Assembly: GCA_011322445.1 (NCBI GenBank)
Contig: DRMV01000049.1
Location: 1 to 44,019 of the forward strand
Length of the DNA stretch: 44,019 nt
Direction: 5' to 3'
DNA from: Chloroflexota bacterium
GTDB taxonomy: Bacteria > Chloroflexota > Anaerolineae > Anaerolineales > DRMV01
Every line of letters starts with the position of its first letter. Positions within the stretch are counted from its first letter, which is position 1. Under the pieces are notes generated by a model. It saw only the letters and a program-made list of their open reading frames with translations. It was not told the DNA's origin and did no database searches. Shown piece by piece: positions 12,764 to 22,922 of the stretch. Both the position numbers and the translations under genes were made by a program.

Positions 12764-15580
12764 TTACTGCTCCCCTTTCCACCCCTCCATCTCATCCCAA
12801 TTCTTCCCCACCTTCGCATCTGTCACTAACGGCACGGCGAGGCGGTAGGCGTTCCCCATTTCGCTTTGCACCGCGCGGGCGACGTCGCTCAGGGCGTCCT
12901 CCGGCACTTCCAGCATCAGTTCGTCATGCACCTGCAGCAGCATTTTGGCGGGCAGGCCGTCACGCTTCAGCCGCTCGGCCACCCGCAGCATGGCCAGTTT
13001 CATGATGTCCGCCGCGGTGCCCTGGATGGGCGCGTTGATGGCTTCCCGCTCGGCACGCAGGCGGGCGTTGCGGTTGGCCGGCTTTTGCAATTCGGGGAAG
13101 TAGCGCCGCCGCCCTAACAGCGTTTCCACATAGCCCTGTTCAGCGGCTTTGCGGCGGGTTTCTTCAATGTAGCGCTTTACGCCGGGGAAGCGCTTGAAGT
13201 AGGCTTCCACGAAGTTTTCGGCTTCGGCTAAGGTGAGGTCGGTGGTGCGGGTGAGACCGAAGGGGCTCATGCCGTAAATCAGGCCAAAGTTGATGGCCTT
13301 GGCGTGGCGGCGCATCTGCGGGGTGACGGCTTCCAGCGGCACGCCGTAGATGGCCGCCGCGGTCGCAGCGTGGATGTCTTGCCCGGCCTGGAAGGCGGCA
13401 ATCATGGCCTCGTCGCCCGAAATGTGTGCCACGATGCGCAGTTCCACCTGGGAATAGTCCACCGAAAGCAGCAGGTGACCTTCGGGTGCGACGAAAGCCC
13501 GCCGCACCCGCCGCCCCACCGGCGTGCGCACGGGGATGTTCTGCAGGTTGGGGTCGGAAGACGCAATCCGCCCGGTGACGGTGCCGGTCTGGTTGTAGGA
13601 GGTGTGCACCCGTCCGGTTTCAGGGTTGACCTGCTGGGGCAAGGCGTCCACATAGGTGGATTTGATTTTCGCCAGTTCGCGGTGTTCCAGCACCCAATCC
13701 ACCACCGGGTGCTGGCCGCGCAGGGCTTCCAGCACGCTGGCCGAGGTGGAATAGTGGCCGCTCTTGGTCTTGCGGGTGCGGTCGGGCGGCTCCAGCCCCA
13801 GAGTTTCAAACAAAATTTTGGAAAGTTGCTGGGTGGAGTTGATGTTGAAACGCTGCCCCACGGCCTGGTAAATTTTCTCTTCCAGCGCGTGCAACTGGTC
13901 GGCGAGTTCCTGCGACATGCGGGCGAGGAAATCGGTATCCACCAGAATGCCGTTCATCTCCATGCGCGCCAGCACGGGCACTAAGGGCATCTCAATTTCC
14001 CGGAACAGCCGCCAGCCGTTGCGCTCGCGGACGTCGGCTTCCAGCAGGGGCATCAGGCGCAGGGTCATCACCGCATCGGCGGCGGCGTAGGGCGCGGCCT
14101 TTGCCACCGGCACCTCGGCCATGCTGATTTGCTTCTTGCCTTTGCCGATGAGTTCGCTGATGTCGGTCATTTCCACACCGAGGCGCGTCCAGGCCAGGTT
14201 TTTCAGCCCCAAATTGTGGGAAGCCGGGTCGCGCACCCACTCGGCAATCATGGTGTCGAAGGCGGGCGTGCTCATGGGCAGGCCGTGGCGTGCCAGAATC
14301 ACCAGGTCGTATTTGATGTTGTGCCCCACCTTCGCCACCTGCGGGTCGGCCAGGAAGGGGGCGAGGGCGGCGCGCACGGTTTCCCACGGCAGTTGGGCTT
14401 CGCCGGTGCGGTGGCCGATGGGAATGTAGAAACCTTCGCCCTCATCCACCGCGAGGGAAACGCCCACCAGGTCGGCGCGCATTTTGTCGGTGGCGGTGGT
14501 TTCGGTGTCGATGGCAATGGTGCGGGCGGCCTTCAGGCGGCGGGTGAGGGCTTGCAATGCTTCCGGGGAAGCCACCACGGTGGTGCGGAAGCCCAAATCG
14601 GGCGCGAGGGAAACCGGCGAAGGCGTGCCCGCGGCGGCCTGCCCGCCGAAGAGGGGAAGTTGCTGGGGTTCGGCGCTTTCCCCGCTCGCGGCCTGCTGCC
14701 ATTCCCGCAGGCGTTTGAGCAGCGAGCGGAATTCCAGTTCGCGGAACAGGGCTTCCACCCCGCCTACCGCGTCGGGACGCGGCACGGCCTGCGCCAGATC
14801 CACCTGCACGTTCAGGTCGGTGCGGATGCGCGCCAGGTCGCGGCTCAGGTAGGCGTTGTCGCGGTCGGCTTCCAGTTTGCGGCGGATGCCGGGGGAAAGT
14901 TCGTCCAGGTGGGCGTAGATGCCGTCCAGGGTGTCGTATTTTTGCAGCAGTTTGGCCGCGGTCTTCTCGCCGATGCCGCGCACGCCGGGGATGTTGTCGG
15001 ATTTGTCGCCCACCAGTGCCTTGAAATCCACAATCTGGTCGGGGCGCACGCCGTATTTGGCTTTCACCTTTTCGGGGGTGTAGTCGGTGCTGTCGGAAAG
15101 TTGGCGGCCAGGGAGGGAAACGATGATGCGGTCGTCGACCAGTTGCAGCAGGTCACGGTCGCCGGTAACGATTTTCACCCCCATGCCCTCGTTTTTGGCG
15201 AGACGTTTGGCCGCGCTGCCCAGCACATCGTCGGCTTCGTAGCCTTCCATTTCGAGGCGGGGAAAGCCAAAGGCGTCCACCAGTTGGCGGATGCGCGCCA
15301 TCTGGGGCACCAGGTCTTCGGGCATTTTAGCGCGGGTGGCCTTGTATTCGGGGTAGATGTCGTCGCGGAAGGTGCGGCCGACATCGAAGGCCACGGCGAG
15401 GTAGTCGGGGCGGTCGGCTTCCAGCAAACGCAGCAGGATGCTGGCGAAGCCGTACACCGCGGCGGTGGGTTCGCCGGCGGACGTGCGCCAGCGGTCGCCG
15501 CCGGTGCCGCCCGCGGTGAGAGCAAAGTAGGCACGGTAGGCCAGGGCGTGGCCGTCGAGGAGGTAAATGGTGGGGGGCAT
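12764..15580 (-). CDS. polA: DNA polymerase I
   Basis: A 938-residue three-domain PolA. The 5'-3' exonuclease domain (about 1-300) has LLDGHALAYRAYF, EADDVLG and GDKSDNIPGVRGIGEKTA. The 3'-5' exonuclease domain (about 330-520) retains IDTETTATD, VGHNIKYD and YAAADAVMTL, so proofreading looks intact. The polymerase domain has motif A SVDYSQVELRIVAH, motif B RRHAKAINFGLIYG and motif C LQVHDELMLEV. The enzyme removes primers and fills gaps in replication and repair. It reads away from the 516-residue fusion protein gene with a 70-nt repeat-bearing gap. The ATG at 15580 has no clear Shine-Dalgarno sequence. Confidence 0.97.
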   Translation of the reverse strand: MPPTIYLLDGHALAYRAYFALTAGGTGGDRWRTSAGEPTAAVYGFASILLRLLEADRPDYLAVAFDVGRTFRDDIYPEYKATRAKMPEDLVPQMARIRQLVDAFGFPRLEMEGYEADDVLGSAAKRLAKNEGMGVKIVTGDRDLLQLVDDRIIVSLPGRQLSDSTDYTPEKVKAKYGVRPDQIVDFKALVGDKSDNIPGVRGIGEKTAAKLLQKYDTLDGIYAHLDELSPGIRRKLEADRDNAYLSRDLARIRTDLNVQVDLAQAVPRPDAVGGVEALFRELEFRSLLKRLREWQQAASGESAEPQQLPLFGGQAAAGTPSPVSLAPDLGFRTTVVASPEALQALTRRLKAARTIAIDTETTATDKMRADLVGVSLAVDEGEGFYIPIGHRTGEAQLPWETVRAALAPFLADPQVAKVGHNIKYDLVILARHGLPMSTPAFDTMIAEWVRDPASHNLGLKNLAWTRLGVEMTDISELIGKGKKQISMAEVPVAKAAPYAAADAVMTLRLMPLLEADVRERNGWRLFREIEMPLVPVLARMEMNGILVDTDFLARMSQELADQLHALEEKIYQAVGQRFNINSTQQLSKILFETLGLEPPDRTRKTKSGHYSTSASVLEALRGQHPVVDWVLEHRELAKIKSTYVDALPQQVNPETGRVHTSYNQTGTVTGRIASSDPNLQNIPVRTPVGRRVRRAFVAPEGHLLLSVDYSQVELRIVAHISGDEAMIAAFQAGQDIHAATAAAIYGVPLEAVTPQMRRHAKAINFGLIYGMSPFGLTRTTDLTLAEAENFVEAYFKRFPGVKRYIEETRRKAAEQGYVETLLGRRRYFPELQKPANRNARLRAEREAINAPIQGTAADIMKLAMLRVAERLKRDGLPAKMLLQVHDELMLEVPEDALSDVARAVQSEMGNAYRLAVPLVTDAKVGKNWDEMEGWKGEQ

Positions 15581-15587
15581 AAGCGTC

Positions 15588-15660
15588 AGGAATTGCGAGT
15601 TAGGGAATTAGGAATGGCGGACGGGGCAGAAGTCAGGAAGTTAGGGGAAGTTAGGGAGTT
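15588..15660. repeat. Tandem short repeats (GAAGTTAGGG / GAATTAGG units) upstream of polA
   Basis: Imperfect copies of the type GAGTTAGGGAATTAGGAA and GTCAGGAAGTTAGGGGAAGTTAGGGAGTTA fill the gap between polA and the gene upstream. They resemble the repeat before yifB at 12346-12407. No gene is visible. Confidence 0.55.
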
Positions 15661-17201
15661 AAGCCCTGGTGGCGGCGGGCGGCAGCGATGAAGGCCGCGA
15701 TCGTATCGGCGGGGATGGGACGGTTTTGGCTCAGCAGCAGGTAGCCGGGGGCCCAAAAATCGCCGCTGATGTTGAGTTCGGCCAGGCGGGGGTAGGTCGC
15801 GAAAATGCGGCGGGAGGTTTCCCTGCGCACGGTGCGCAGCACTTCGGCAGGGGAGGTTTCGGGCGGGGTTTGCGCTATCCACTGCAGGTGATCGGCGCGC
15901 ACAGCCAGATGCACCAACCGCCATCCCATCGCGGTAGCAATTTGCGGTAACCACTGACTCAGGTCACGCGCGAGGTCGCCGGCCAAGTGGTGCTGCGGAA
16001 AGCGGGGAATGAGCACGCAGGCATAGGCCACCGCAGCGTGAATGGGCAAAGCGGCTGGCAGGGTGGCTTCCGGCGGATCGGAAGGCTGCGGCTGCAAAGG
16101 CGACGAAGCAGCAGGGAGGGGGGCTTCAGCCACTTCCACCCCGGGCGTCACAGGGGCCACAGCATCCTGAGGAGCAGGCGGCGCAGCGGGCGGCGGCGGT
16201 GTTGGCGGCTCTGGCGGGGGCACCTCATCGAAGAGCGGCTCGTAGGCTTCGGGCGGCAAGTCGCCCCCCACCGCTTCAGCCGGGGCCGATTCGGCAGCCG
16301 GGACCACTGTGCTTTCCGCGGGCGGCGCAGCCACCAGAGGCTCATCAGGCAACGGCAGTGCATCTTCCGGCAGGGGGAGCGGTTCAAGGGGGCGCGCGGG
16401 CGGGGCTTCCGATGAAGCAGGGGTTTCGGTTTCTCCCGGCGGGCGGTCGCGGGTCAATGCCTCGGCCAGGTGCCCGGCCTGGGCACGGATGCGGCTAAAG
16501 GGCACGCGCACATCGAAAAGCATCGCCAAGACCAAATCGGCGGTCACGCCGGTGGCATAAAGCAGATAGTCTTGCTGCACCGCTTCCAGCCGCAAGAAGC
16601 GGACGAAATCCACCCCTTCCCCGGCCTCCCAATAATGGGCCGCGAGGCGGGCCAATTCTTCGGCCGCGGGCTGGGGCAGTTCACCCGCATAAGCCCATAA
16701 CTGCCCGTCGGTCGTCACCAGGGCGGCAGCCTGGGCCGCGGTTTCCAGGCTCAGGCGGGTGAGGTACTGCGCCGCCATCGCTACATCGCTCAGCCACGGC
16801 GGACGCGGCGGCAGCGCACGAGCAGGCGGCGCAGCGGGCAGGGGGGCGGCCTCGCCAAACCACCCTGCCACCGCAGCGAGGAAATCGGGCAGGTAGAACG
16901 GCTTGGGAAGGGTCAAATCGGGGGCCAGCGCCGCCAAAGCAGGGGGGACAGTCGCTTCAGGGGCCAACAGCACCACCCGCAGGTCAGCATTGCGCTGCCG
17001 GAAGGCATCTGCACACGCGAGCACCTGCTCGGGTGGTGCCACATCGCCATCCACCACCAGCAGGGCCGGGGCTTCCTCCGCGGGGGTTGCCTCTACCGGA
17101 ATCTCGCTCAGCACCGTCGCTTCCACACCTCGCGAGGCCAACGACTCCCGCAGGAGTTCGCCCAGCCCCGCTTGAGGCGTGAACACCACCGCACGCGTCA
17201 T
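15651..17201 (-). CDS. Receiver-like / Roadblock-LC7 / inactivated Y1 (IS200-type) transposase domain fusion
   Basis: A 516-residue protein starting at ATG 17201, which overlaps the stop of the small gene upstream (ATGA). Residues 1-117 look like a response-regulator receiver with Asp51 (LLVVDGD) and Lys100 (LTLPKPF), but without the first-strand acidic pair. Residues about 138-250 match the Roadblock/LC7 pattern (ETAAQAAALVTTDGQLWAYA, then YLLYATGVTADLVLAMLFD). Residues about 251-385 are a Pro/Ala/Glu linker. Residues 388-512 follow the IS200/IS605 TnpA fold order: YACVLIPRF, MGWRLVHLAVRADHLQW, TSPAEVLRTVRRETSRRIF, GDFWAPGYLL, DTIAAFIAAARRHQG. The HUH motif reads HLQ (438-440) and the catalytic Tyr position is Phe504, so this domain is probably not a nuclease. 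It may bind structured nucleic acid. The combination is new to me; function unknown. Confidence 0.72.
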   Translation of the reverse strand: MTRAVVFTPQAGLGELLRESLASRGVEATVLSEIPVEATPAEEAPALLVVDGDVAPPEQVLACADAFRQRNADLRVVLLAPEATVPPALAALAPDLTLPKPFYLPDFLAAVAGWFGEAAPLPAAPPARALPPRPPWLSDVAMAAQYLTRLSLETAAQAAALVTTDGQLWAYAGELPQPAAEELARLAAHYWEAGEGVDFVRFLRLEAVQQDYLLYATGVTADLVLAMLFDVRVPFSRIRAQAGHLAEALTRDRPPGETETPASSEAPPARPLEPLPLPEDALPLPDEPLVAAPPAESTVVPAAESAPAEAVGGDLPPEAYEPLFDEVPPPEPPTPPPPAAPPAPQDAVAPVTPGVEVAEAPLPAASSPLQPQPSDPPEATLPAALPIHAAVAYACVLIPRFPQHHLAGDLARDLSQWLPQIATAMGWRLVHLAVRADHLQWIAQTPPETSPAEVLRTVRRETSRRIFATYPRLAELNISGDFWAPGYLLLSQNRPIPADTIAAFIAAARRHQGLTP

Positions 17202-17377
17202 TTTAGCGCTTTCATCAGCGAAAGAAACTCTTTCCACTCTTCGGCAAAAAAGTGGACGGTCAGCGCGCCGAGTTCCAGATGATAGGTCACCTCGCCGTCC
17301 GGCTCTTCGGCCTTCCACACGAGGTAGTTCTTGGTCTCGGCCAGCACTTCGGTTTGAGGTTCGGGGAATTCACTCAT
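17198..17377 (-). CDS. Small conserved-looking protein upstream of the Roadblock/transposase-like fusion
   Basis: A 59-residue acidic protein that begins MSEFPEPQTEVLAETKNYLV and ends FLSLMKALK. It starts at ATG 17377 with GAGG seven bases upstream and stops with a TGA that overlaps the next ATG (17201) by 4 nt, a clear sign of translational coupling. The sequence suggests a small beta-rich fold (YLVWKAEEPDGEVTYHLELG, ALTVHFFAEEW) and no membrane segment. I do not recognise a family; it may be a partner of the downstream fusion protein. Confidence 0.72.
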   Translation of the reverse strand: MSEFPEPQTEVLAETKNYLVWKAEEPDGEVTYHLELGALTVHFFAEEWKEFLSLMKALK

Positions 17378-20146: not shown

Positions 20147-20719
20147 TCACCATTCGCAATTGCTGTTGCTTTCCCCATTGAAGCAGGCGTCATAACCGCT
20201 GCCGCCGTTCAGCGTATCGGTGCCGCTGCCGCCATCCAAAATATCGTCACCGCCCTCGCCATAGATGATGTCATTCCCATTGCCTCCCCGCAAATAAGCG
20301 CGCCAGGGAATTCGGAAGAAGAAGAGATTGATCCACTCGCCTTCATCGCCGGAGCCGCCCAAAATGACGTCGTTCCCATCGCCGCCGTCGACATAATCGC
20401 GTCCCGCGCCCGCCACAATGCAGTCATCGCCCCCACCGCCATAAATCGTATTATCGCTCGCGTTGCCCAAAATCAAGTCATTGCCCGCTGTACCGGTGCC
20501 GCTGCTCGAAACGATGAGCACGTCGGCAAAGGCAATGCCATAACATTCCAGCGGCGCCAGTTGGGAAGCGGAAAGCGGAATAAAACCATCAGCGGCATAC
20601 GTCGTCGGCACTGTGTTGGTCGCGGCATAGGAGCCCACCGCGCCCCACACGATGAGCAACAAAACCACCAAAGGAAGCAGTCGCCACAGGCGTTTACGCC
20701 GCAGGTGTCGCCTCATCAT
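20147..20719 (-). CDS. Exported RTX-type calcium-binding repeat protein, probable SipW-type substrate
   Basis: A 190-residue precursor. A basic N-terminus (MMRRHLRRKRLWRL) and hydrophobic stretch VVLLLIVWGAVGSYA are followed by ATNTVPTTYAADG, nearly the same as in the small protein at 22990-23382. The mature part holds GGxGxDxxx nonapeptide repeats (GTAGNDLILG, GGGGDDCIVAG, GGDGNDVILGG, GGNGNDIIYG, GEGGDDILDGG, GGSGTDTLNGG) that bind calcium and fold into a parallel beta roll. Starts at 20725, 20719 and 20716 are possible; 20719 has GGAGG six bases upstream. It overlaps the end of the signal peptidase fusion gene by 26 nt. Role inferred: a secreted surface or matrix protein processed by its neighbour. 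Confidence 0.82.
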   Translation of the reverse strand: MMRRHLRRKRLWRLLPLVVLLLIVWGAVGSYAATNTVPTTYAADGFIPLSASQLAPLECYGIAFADVLIVSSSGTGTAGNDLILGNASDNTIYGGGGDDCIVAGAGRDYVDGGDGNDVILGGSGDEGEWINLFFFRIPWRAYLRGGNGNDIIYGEGGDDILDGGSGTDTLNGGSGYDACFNGESNSNCEW

Positions 20720-22922
20720 CTTCATCCTCCACCGCGGGCGCCCCAGCAGTTGAAGAGGGTTGCTCAAGCCCTGTTGCCGAAGAAGCCTTGACCCAATTCA
20801 GGAAAACTTCCACCACGCGGGGGTCATACCATTCCCCCGCCTTCTGGCGGAGGAAACTCGCTGCCGCGCTTTCCGGCCAGGCAGCCCGGTGAGGGCGGTT
20901 GTGGCGCAAAGCGTCCCAGGCATCGACCACGGCCAGGATACGCGCGCCCAACGGAATTTGTTCGCCGCGCAGGCCATCGGGGTAGCCGGAGCCATCCCAA
21001 CGTTCGGTGCGGTGATAGGCAATGCGCAACGCGCCGGCCAGCGCCTCTACCGATTCAAAGCGCACGTTCAGCCGCAAAACATGCTCTCGCAAAATCCGCT
21101 TCTCTTCCTCGGTCAACGGCGCCGTTTTCTGCACAATCTCTGGGGGAATTTCTATCAAGCCCAAACCGTGCAACAAAGCGGCCAGCCGCAGGTCTCGCAA
21201 GGCAGGCTCAGAGAGACCCAACGCCTTTCCCAACGCGACGGCCAACCGCGCCACCCGCTGGGAATGCCCGGCATCGTGCACCACCTGGCTATCGACCGTC
21301 TGCGCCCACTCTTCCAACACGCTTTCGCACGCGCCGCCCACGGGGGCGGCCTTCCAGCGCAAAAAGCGCGGGCGAGGCAGCAGCGGCCGAGCATGCTGCG
21401 GCACACGCGCCTGCCCTTCAGCCCCATAATGATACACCACGTCAGGCGTCTTGAGCCAGAAGTGCACCTGCTCGCCTTCCCGCAAATGAAACACCGGCGC
21501 GCGGTGCAACGCCGCGAGCGAGGCCAAATCGGAAAGGCTCCCTACCTCGACGACCGGCAACGTGTGGTGCGGCAGCGCATCAAGGGGCACCGTCGTCACC
21601 CCGCCTATCAGGCGTATTTGGGCTACGGGGTCACCTTCCACCACCTGGTGCTCATAATACAACGCACCGCCCAGCAGCACTAACGCCAGCCCCCCTACCA
21701 CCACAGAGACCGTGCGCGCCAGCGGCACCGGCACGTGCGCGCCCAAAATCAACAAGGTGTTGACACGAGGCACGGTGTGCACAATCGCGTTCTGCCGCAC
21801 AATGTGTAAAGGGTCAGGCGCTTTCTCGCCCAGCGGCACACCGCCGGAGGTTTCCAGCACCAAGGCGTTGCCATTCCAACGAAAACGCAGCATCGGTTCA
21901 AAAGTTTCCTGGAACGCCTCACCGCCCACGGTGCCGTGGGTTTCAATGTGAGCCATCACGGCCAGCGTGTAAGTGCCACGGCGGCCTGTGATCTGCTCGA
22001 ATTCATCGATGAAGCGGCGCATGTCTTCCAGGTGCAGCGTGGCCTGAGCGGTAAACGTGCCGTTTTGGAAAGCCGTGGGCTCCGTGAGGGGAAGGGTGCG
22101 CTTCCACCCCGTGGCGTCGCTTACCCGCGCCAACAAGCGGTAAGTGCCTTCCAACTGAAAAGGCGCCGCAGCAGTGAAGCGATAAGTGCACCCCACCGTA
22201 ATCGTGCCCGTCAGTTGCGTAAAAATCGGTTCGCCGGGCTGCACCTGGGGCAGATCGTAAAGCCCTTCAGGGGCGCGCGCCGTGTACGAAAATGCCACCG
22301 TCTCAGTATAAGAAATCGGCTCCTGGGCTTGCACCACCTTGGGGCGGGTAAAAGCCACCACCCCCAACAACACCGCCAGCACCAGCAAAACGGCAAAGGC
22401 GATCATCCAATCGTAAAGGGTATCCCCTCGTGGCATCACAAAGTTTTCCTCTTCTTCATCCGGGCCCACCCGCAGCCAGTCGCCGAACAGCAACAGGCCG
22501 ATCAATACGACCAACGCTGTGATAACCCACGGCGAGCGCAAGTGCCTGAGCACTTTCCCCACCGCCGGGATGCGGGCAGCATAACGCGCGAGCACTTCGT
22601 CAGGGCGGGGGTGGTAAGGGTCTTCCCAGGCGTTGTTATCGCCCTTGAAGCGAAAGCGCCCTTCAGCATCATAGCCCACAATGCGGTGGAAGACAAAACC
22701 AATGCGCGGGTGGCGGTAAATGGCAATATCGCCGGGCTGGTAAAAGGGGGCGCGGCGCGCCAGCACCAGATCGCCGACGTGGAAATGCGGCTCCATGCTG
22801 GGGCCGGTCAGGATGACGTAGTACATCTCGCCCCCCAACCGCGCCGGGAAGAAAAACACCCCAAGGGCGATCAAAAAAGCGATCACCCCCGCCCACGCCA
22901 GCCAGCCCCGCTTACCCATCAT
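20694..22922 (-). CDS. SipW-type signal peptidase I fused to a DUF5305-like region and an HD-GYP-like domain
   Basis: A 742-residue membrane protein. Residues 8-125 are an S26 signal peptidase of the ER/SipW type: TGPSMEPHFHVGDLVLA (Ser42 nucleophile), FVFHRIVG (His79 in place of the bacterial Lys) and FKGDNNAWED (residues 92-101). Helices follow at about 131-147 and 172-191. Residues about 200-515 resemble DUF5305: an extracytoplasmic beta domain, a helix at about 401-423, and a cytoplasmic tail with LPVVEVGSLSDLASLA. Residues about 535-700 are an HD-GYP-like domain: His553, His614, His637 and GYP 646-648 are kept, but the HD pair is His585-Gly586. It presumably cleaves the exported proteins on either side. 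Two ATGs (22922, 22919) are possible; neither has a strong ribosome site. Confidence 0.82.
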   Translation of the reverse strand: MMGKRGWLAWAGVIAFLIALGVFFFPARLGGEMYYVILTGPSMEPHFHVGDLVLARRAPFYQPGDIAIYRHPRIGFVFHRIVGYDAEGRFRFKGDNNAWEDPYHPRPDEVLARYAARIPAVGKVLRHLRSPWVITALVVLIGLLLFGDWLRVGPDEEEENFVMPRGDTLYDWMIAFAVLLVLAVLLGVVAFTRPKVVQAQEPISYTETVAFSYTARAPEGLYDLPQVQPGEPIFTQLTGTITVGCTYRFTAAAPFQLEGTYRLLARVSDATGWKRTLPLTEPTAFQNGTFTAQATLHLEDMRRFIDEFEQITGRRGTYTLAVMAHIETHGTVGGEAFQETFEPMLRFRWNGNALVLETSGGVPLGEKAPDPLHIVRQNAIVHTVPRVNTLLILGAHVPVPLARTVSVVVGGLALVLLGGALYYEHQVVEGDPVAQIRLIGGVTTVPLDALPHHTLPVVEVGSLSDLASLAALHRAPVFHLREGEQVHFWLKTPDVVYHYGAEGQARVPQHARPLLPRPRFLRWKAAPVGGACESVLEEWAQTVDSQVVHDAGHSQRVARLAVALGKALGLSEPALRDLRLAALLHGLGLIEIPPEIVQKTAPLTEEEKRILREHVLRLNVRFESVEALAGALRIAYHRTERWDGSGYPDGLRGEQIPLGARILAVVDAWDALRHNRPHRAAWPESAAASFLRQKAGEWYDPRVVEVFLNWVKASSATGLEQPSSTAGAPAVEDEDDEATPAA

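Follow-up and report, generated by a model that had tools for sequence, protein, structure and literature searches.

Among the described systems, those closest to the locus reported here are the TnpA transposases of IS200/IS605 elements and the RAYT proteins (TnpAREP). TnpA of IS608 and ISDra2 has the lagging-strand template as its site of action, recognizes hairpins, and is thought to touch the beta clamp (PMC6006769). RAYTs are Y1-fold proteins that have been adopted by their hosts (PMC6006769, PMC8266576) and that keep both the HUH motif and the Y---NP motif (PMC6006769). In a published survey of the superfamily, unusually long (fused) proteins were set aside, and the classes were described with HUH and Tyr motifs kept (PMC6006769). 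A literature search on Roadblock domains together with IS200, Y1_Tnp or Chloroflexi receivers returned no description of an architecture in which such modules are fused.

The window, that is, the whole stretch of 44,019 nucleotides from a Chloroflexota bacterium that was analysed, carries on its minus strand a gene of 516 codons (15651-17201), hereafter the fusion gene, which translates cleanly without internal stops. A first-pass annotation, made from the letters of the DNA, had described it as a domesticated Y1 transposase domain joined to receiver-like and Roadblock/LC7 domains, and this observation was confirmed as a whole. A receiver-like domain (residues ~1-118; 16848-17201) was delimited by using an AlphaFold (AF2) model and VIA-align, and is followed by a Roadblock/LC7 domain (residues ~135-251; 16449-16799) that was recognized from a subthreshold Pfam match and fold comparison. 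A Pro/Ala/Glu-rich linker (16062-16448), read from the sequence and the least conserved region by identity in the pairs where this was measurable, connects them to the IS200-type Y1 domain (residues 391-506; 15684-16031), which was assigned with Pfam, NCBIfam, the AF2 model, and fold comparison.

The evidence for the Y1 fold is consistent across methods. Pfam Y1_Tnp matches residues 391-506 with an E-value of 3.5e-12 (47 bits; cut-off 23), the NCBIfam IS200 transposase model NF033573 gives 56 bits where 55 are required, and a sequence search of the PDB recovers TnpA of ISDra2 at 4e-10. The AlphaFold model of the domain, built from 41 sequences, has a mean pLDDT of 94.4, a confidence that speaks to fold rather than function; it superimposes on TnpA structures with Z of 14-17 (about 16) over 105-125 residues and with deviations of 1.5-2.3 Å for nearly all of them, while the next unrelated folds reach only about 7. 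TnpA matches were also returned by Foldseek, with E-values down to 5e-11. The transposase kinship proposed in the first-pass annotation is therefore upheld by both profile search and structural comparison. The domain shares with IS200/IS605 TnpA (ISDra2, IS608; PF01797, NF033573) the fold of residues 391-506, the order of motifs, and the conserved Trp of the fourth strand. Its resemblance to RAYTs lies in being a Y1-fold protein in the service of its host; the NCBIfam RAYT model NF047646, however, stays at 15 bits, far from its cut-off of 80, and the structure of a REP transposase (4er8) fits the Y1 model with a Z of 8.3, far weaker than TnpA.

Where the family departs from both systems is in the catalytic residues, which were surveyed in an alignment of 123 distinct homologues. 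The HUH motif is degenerate in the present protein, reading His438-Leu439-Gln440 (15882-15890), and Phe504 (15690-15692) occupies the position of the nucleophilic Tyr, at exactly the coordinates given before. Across the family, HUH is mostly replaced by Tyr-x-Gln, with Tyr at position 438 in 100 of the 123 homologues (81%) and Gln at position 440 in 101 (82%), and Trp441 is kept in 84%. Although the first-pass annotation had pointed to the loss of HUH and Tyr together, only that of HUH holds throughout, whereas the nucleophile position is divided between Tyr (62/123) and Phe (57/123), so that loss of the metal site is the common trait and the change from Tyr to Phe is lineage-specific. The position of the metal-binding Gln is occupied by Thr in 92 of the 123 homologues, Gln being rare there, and the present protein carries Phe504 and Ala508 at the Y---Q positions. 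The full set of two His, Tyr and Gln is found in none of the 123; the single homologue that keeps both His of HUH has Phe and Thr instead of Tyr and Gln. By contrast, stand-alone TnpA copies from the same order, placed in the same profile alignment, mostly keep His-x-His, Tyr, and Gln. With the metal site lost, the domain should not cleave DNA through the HUH mechanism, and since the replacement residues are themselves conserved, re-use rather than decay is indicated. Residues 391-506 represent a TnpA fold by descent that has neither the HUH motif and metal-binding Gln of TnpA nor the HUH and Y---NP motifs of RAYTs.

Homologues with all three domains, full-length and without stops, occur across the order. 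A single-sequence scan of named genomes found nothing, but an alignment query of named genomes located homologues at 161 loci or contigs, all from Anaerolineae/Chloroflexi among the titles listed. Scans of the phylum and class with the full alignment returned so many ordinary receiver domains that only their high-scoring rows were used. Distant members in another order of the class (L268-L270) encode longer proteins, of 954-1007 aa, that likewise comprise receiver, Roadblock, and Y1 domains. Pairwise dN/dS values for the Y1 domain lie between 0.02 and 0.29 and in almost every pair are comparable to or lower than the values for the remainder of the protein; judged by these substitution rates, purifying selection on the domain is strong. 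A tree was built from 57 Y1 domains (34 from the order, 6 distant, 3 others, and 14 TnpA); in it, a branch with 100/99 support divides all domains of the fusion family from the 14 TnpA, a split that shows separation from TnpA and not strictly a single origin. Stand-alone Y1 proteins of 182-194 aa also fall in the same clade (L053:3989-4570, L197:3825-4371, L198:3326-3884). Each of them has in its vicinity a gene whose product combines an Mrr N-terminal domain with the Mrr catalytic domain of restriction endonucleases, and a TPR-repeat protein of ~442 aa is encoded next in L197 and L198, with a similar ORF of 448 aa in L053; these genes possibly form a restriction or defence-like cluster. The fusion protein itself gave no match in PADLOC when a link to defence systems was sought.

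The constant neighbour of the fusion gene, missed in the first-pass annotation and new here, is polA. In the window, the gene for DNA polymerase I (12764-15580, minus strand) comes next, 70 nt beyond the end of the fusion gene and co-directional with it. Of 80 named loci, 78 had more than 600 nt of downstream sequence; polA follows within 1 kb at 67 of these 78 and within 1.3 kb at 69, typically after a gap of 6-250 nt, and each of the 13 families of the order in which the fusion gene occurs shows polA downstream in at least one case. The long members L268-L270 are likewise encoded directly upstream of polA, and a 684-aa member of that other order (L267) lies 1.4 kb upstream of it. Moreover, receiver-Roadblock genes in which no Y1 domain is detectable occupy the polA-upstream position both within the order (L048, L051, L058, L061) and in other orders (L179, L191, L193). 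Either the Y1 domain was added to an older polA-linked receiver-Roadblock gene or it has been lost repeatedly; as such relatives exist, it is not strictly needed.

The spacer between the two genes (15581-15650) is pyrimidine-rich, carries short CCTAACTTC-type direct repeats, a pattern found twice against 0.08 expected, and is unstructured (RNA fold z-score 0.34), so that RNA folding revealed no hairpin target in front of polA. A similar pyrimidine-rich CCTAACTTC-like repeat tract (15581-15658 here) is present in one relative, L002. At three other loci (L101, L107, L140) polA is not downstream, and the fusion gene is followed after 65-73 nt by a convergent gene that resembles radA (DNA repair), a call made by eye from the N-terminal sequence.

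On the other side, a small gene of 59 codons (17198-17377, minus strand) has its stop codon TGA merged with the start codon ATG of the fusion gene in the sequence ATGA, so that the coupling to a small gene noted earlier is real. It has no Pfam or NCBIfam family. The same gene precedes the fusion gene in a number of relatives and is single-copy in 76 of 101, in many of which it is located elsewhere, often far away; it is therefore not a fixed partner, and the case for co-function is weak. At locus L230 (genome G049), ~400 nt separate the 59-aa gene from the polA downstream of it, and no fusion gene is detectable in the interval, which looks like a deletion of the central gene. Elsewhere in the window, an ORF of 742 aa (20694-22922, minus strand) unusually combines an N-terminal signal-peptidase-like match (Peptidase_S24) and a match to DUF5305 with an HD domain of the HD-GYP type at its C-terminus (HD_5, E = 3e-40), and its end is overlapped by a 206-aa ORF (20147-20767, minus strand) with RTX calcium-binding nonapeptide repeats.

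The three folds, the family-wide loss of catalytic residues, the purifying selection on Y1, and the conserved placement upstream of polA can be considered secure. While the anatomy of the protein is firm in this sense, its function is one that we infer, and the reading we tentatively favour, at somewhat less than even chances, is that a catalytically dead Y1 domain has been reused as the binding or dimerization module of an adaptor working with Pol I. According to this proposal, the fusion gene would be co-transcribed with polA, and its product would act as a non-enzymatic scaffold that dimerizes through its Roadblock domain and probably through Y1 too. The Y1 domain, held on a flexible linker and attached to an adaptor of pseudo-receiver and Roadblock, would recognize single-stranded or folded DNA, either by the old hairpin/ssDNA surface or by the refilled pocket (Tyr-x-Gln-Trp), and would thereby guide or limit Pol I where lagging-strand gaps or repair sites occur. 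For the receiver, the proposal envisages a protein-interaction or conformational input instead of a classical phospho-switch. The chances given above apply to this proposal as a whole. The step of ssDNA or hairpin recognition is drawn from the biology of TnpA in IS608 and ISDra2 (PMC6006769). A bolder version, in which the protein is a lineage-wide Pol I accessory factor whose dead HUH domain, on its Roadblock/receiver platform, senses folded ssDNA and controls Pol I on the lagging strand, appears unlikely.

The most serious competitor, which we consider possible though rather doubtful, holds that Y1 no longer touches nucleic acid and has become a stable dimerization or protein-docking module, with Pol I or another protein as partner of the scaffold. 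The Y1 domains of TnpA form dimers and Roadblock domains dimerize too, and the refilling of the catalytic pocket with Tyr, Gln, and Trp is in line with such a role, as are the polA-linked relatives that have no Y1. The charge of the domain also bears on this question: mean net charge is +2.1 in the main family and +4.8 in TnpA, but -5.5 in the six distant members, an argument against DNA binding having simply been retained in the latter. In the main family, however, Arg is conserved at many positions (400, 428, 435, 456, 459, 472, and 509), and a polA link that extends across the lineage fits a DNA-related role.

It is considerably less probable that the protein belongs to small-GTPase signalling, with the Roadblock domain acting on an MglA-type GTPase and the receiver providing the input, as in motility or polarity systems. 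The folds themselves lend some weight to this idea. In the AF2 model, residues 1-264 form a receiver followed by a Roadblock/LC7 domain; the latter, despite a Pfam match that remains below threshold in this sequence (E = 1.1e-3), resembles p14/LAMTOR2 (Z 14.8) and a Streptomyces Roadblock protein (Z 14.8), and MglB is among the Foldseek matches of the region. Roadblock proteins are usually encoded near genes for MglA-type GTPases (PMC4316618), and strong Roc matches were detected in 11 of 41 relatives. By contrast, no strong Roc/MglA-like GTPase was found either in the host genome (96% complete), where the Roc matches are weak and as long as ordinary translation-type GTPases would be, or in G028, a single-contig genome that also has the fusion gene. 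Unlike MglB, moreover, the Roadblock domain here is part of a multidomain protein, and the constant neighbour is polA, not a GTPase gene. An MglA partnership is not supported by this Roc search. The receiver matches Spo0F with a Z of 15.8 (2.2 Å over 114 residues), and both its phospho-acceptor Asp51 and its Lys100 are kept, the former in 136 and the latter in 122 of the 158 rows from a receiver-Roadblock profile search, but the acidic Mg-binding pair of CheY-like receivers is absent at the end of strand 1, where Thr8-Pro9 was placed by eye. Pfam Response_reg falls below its cut-off in this protein and in L007 and L022, and exceeds it in L048, a relative without Y1. Of the interpretation offered in the first-pass annotation, the domesticated Y1 domain, devoid of its catalytic residues and fused to receiver-like and Roadblock domains, stands; the binding of structured DNA or RNA proposed there is a putative function, and the suggested partnership with small GTPases or motility and polarity systems is unlikely as framed.

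Another improbable explanation is that the fusion gene has no relation to Pol I and serves some other regulatory role, its link to a housekeeping gene being no more than a common transcription unit. Neighbours in an operon need not be functionally linked; no polA lies close by at 11 of the 78 loci, and several genomes of the order possess polA but no fusion gene, so that neighbourhood alone does not establish joint function. This explanation is nevertheless difficult to reconcile with a placement that persists in every family of the order carrying the gene, recurs in a second order, and is seen with versions that have no Y1, even as the upstream neighbours vary.

That an IS200-type transposase, still active or active until recently, has by chance become fused to an adjacent gene is extremely improbable and was rejected, since the scores above the Pfam and NCBIfam cut-offs stand against a catalytic set that is incomplete in every one of the 123 relatives, a single copy in the genome without IS ends, and a locus that is fixed across families. 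The subterminal hairpins and scattered copies that characterize TnpA elements are not seen here: around the fusion gene there are no close inverted repeats or palindromes, including any flanking REP palindromes of the kind associated with RAYTs, and the inverted repeats in this region are long-distance and imperfect; the first-pass annotation, too, had seen no insertion-sequence ends. Unlike TnpA, the Y1 domain is the C-terminal part of a host protein, and the fusion gene belongs to the host and is inherited vertically; it is no mobile element.

These results also call for caution in annotation, as models such as those of NCBIfam name host proteins of this kind IS200/IS605 'transposase'. In this family, the Y1 fold has been kept while catalysis appears to have been lost and a new set of residues fixed, all within a signalling-type protein whose gene accompanies that of DNA polymerase I across an order and also outside it; the known host-adopted Y1 transposases, the RAYTs, keep their catalytic residues, whereas this family does not. 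The conserved dead domain and its adjacency to polA hint at an unrecognized non-enzymatic role in DNA replication or repair, and if the protein does act on Pol I, it would represent a previously unrecognized replication or repair factor of Anaerolineae.
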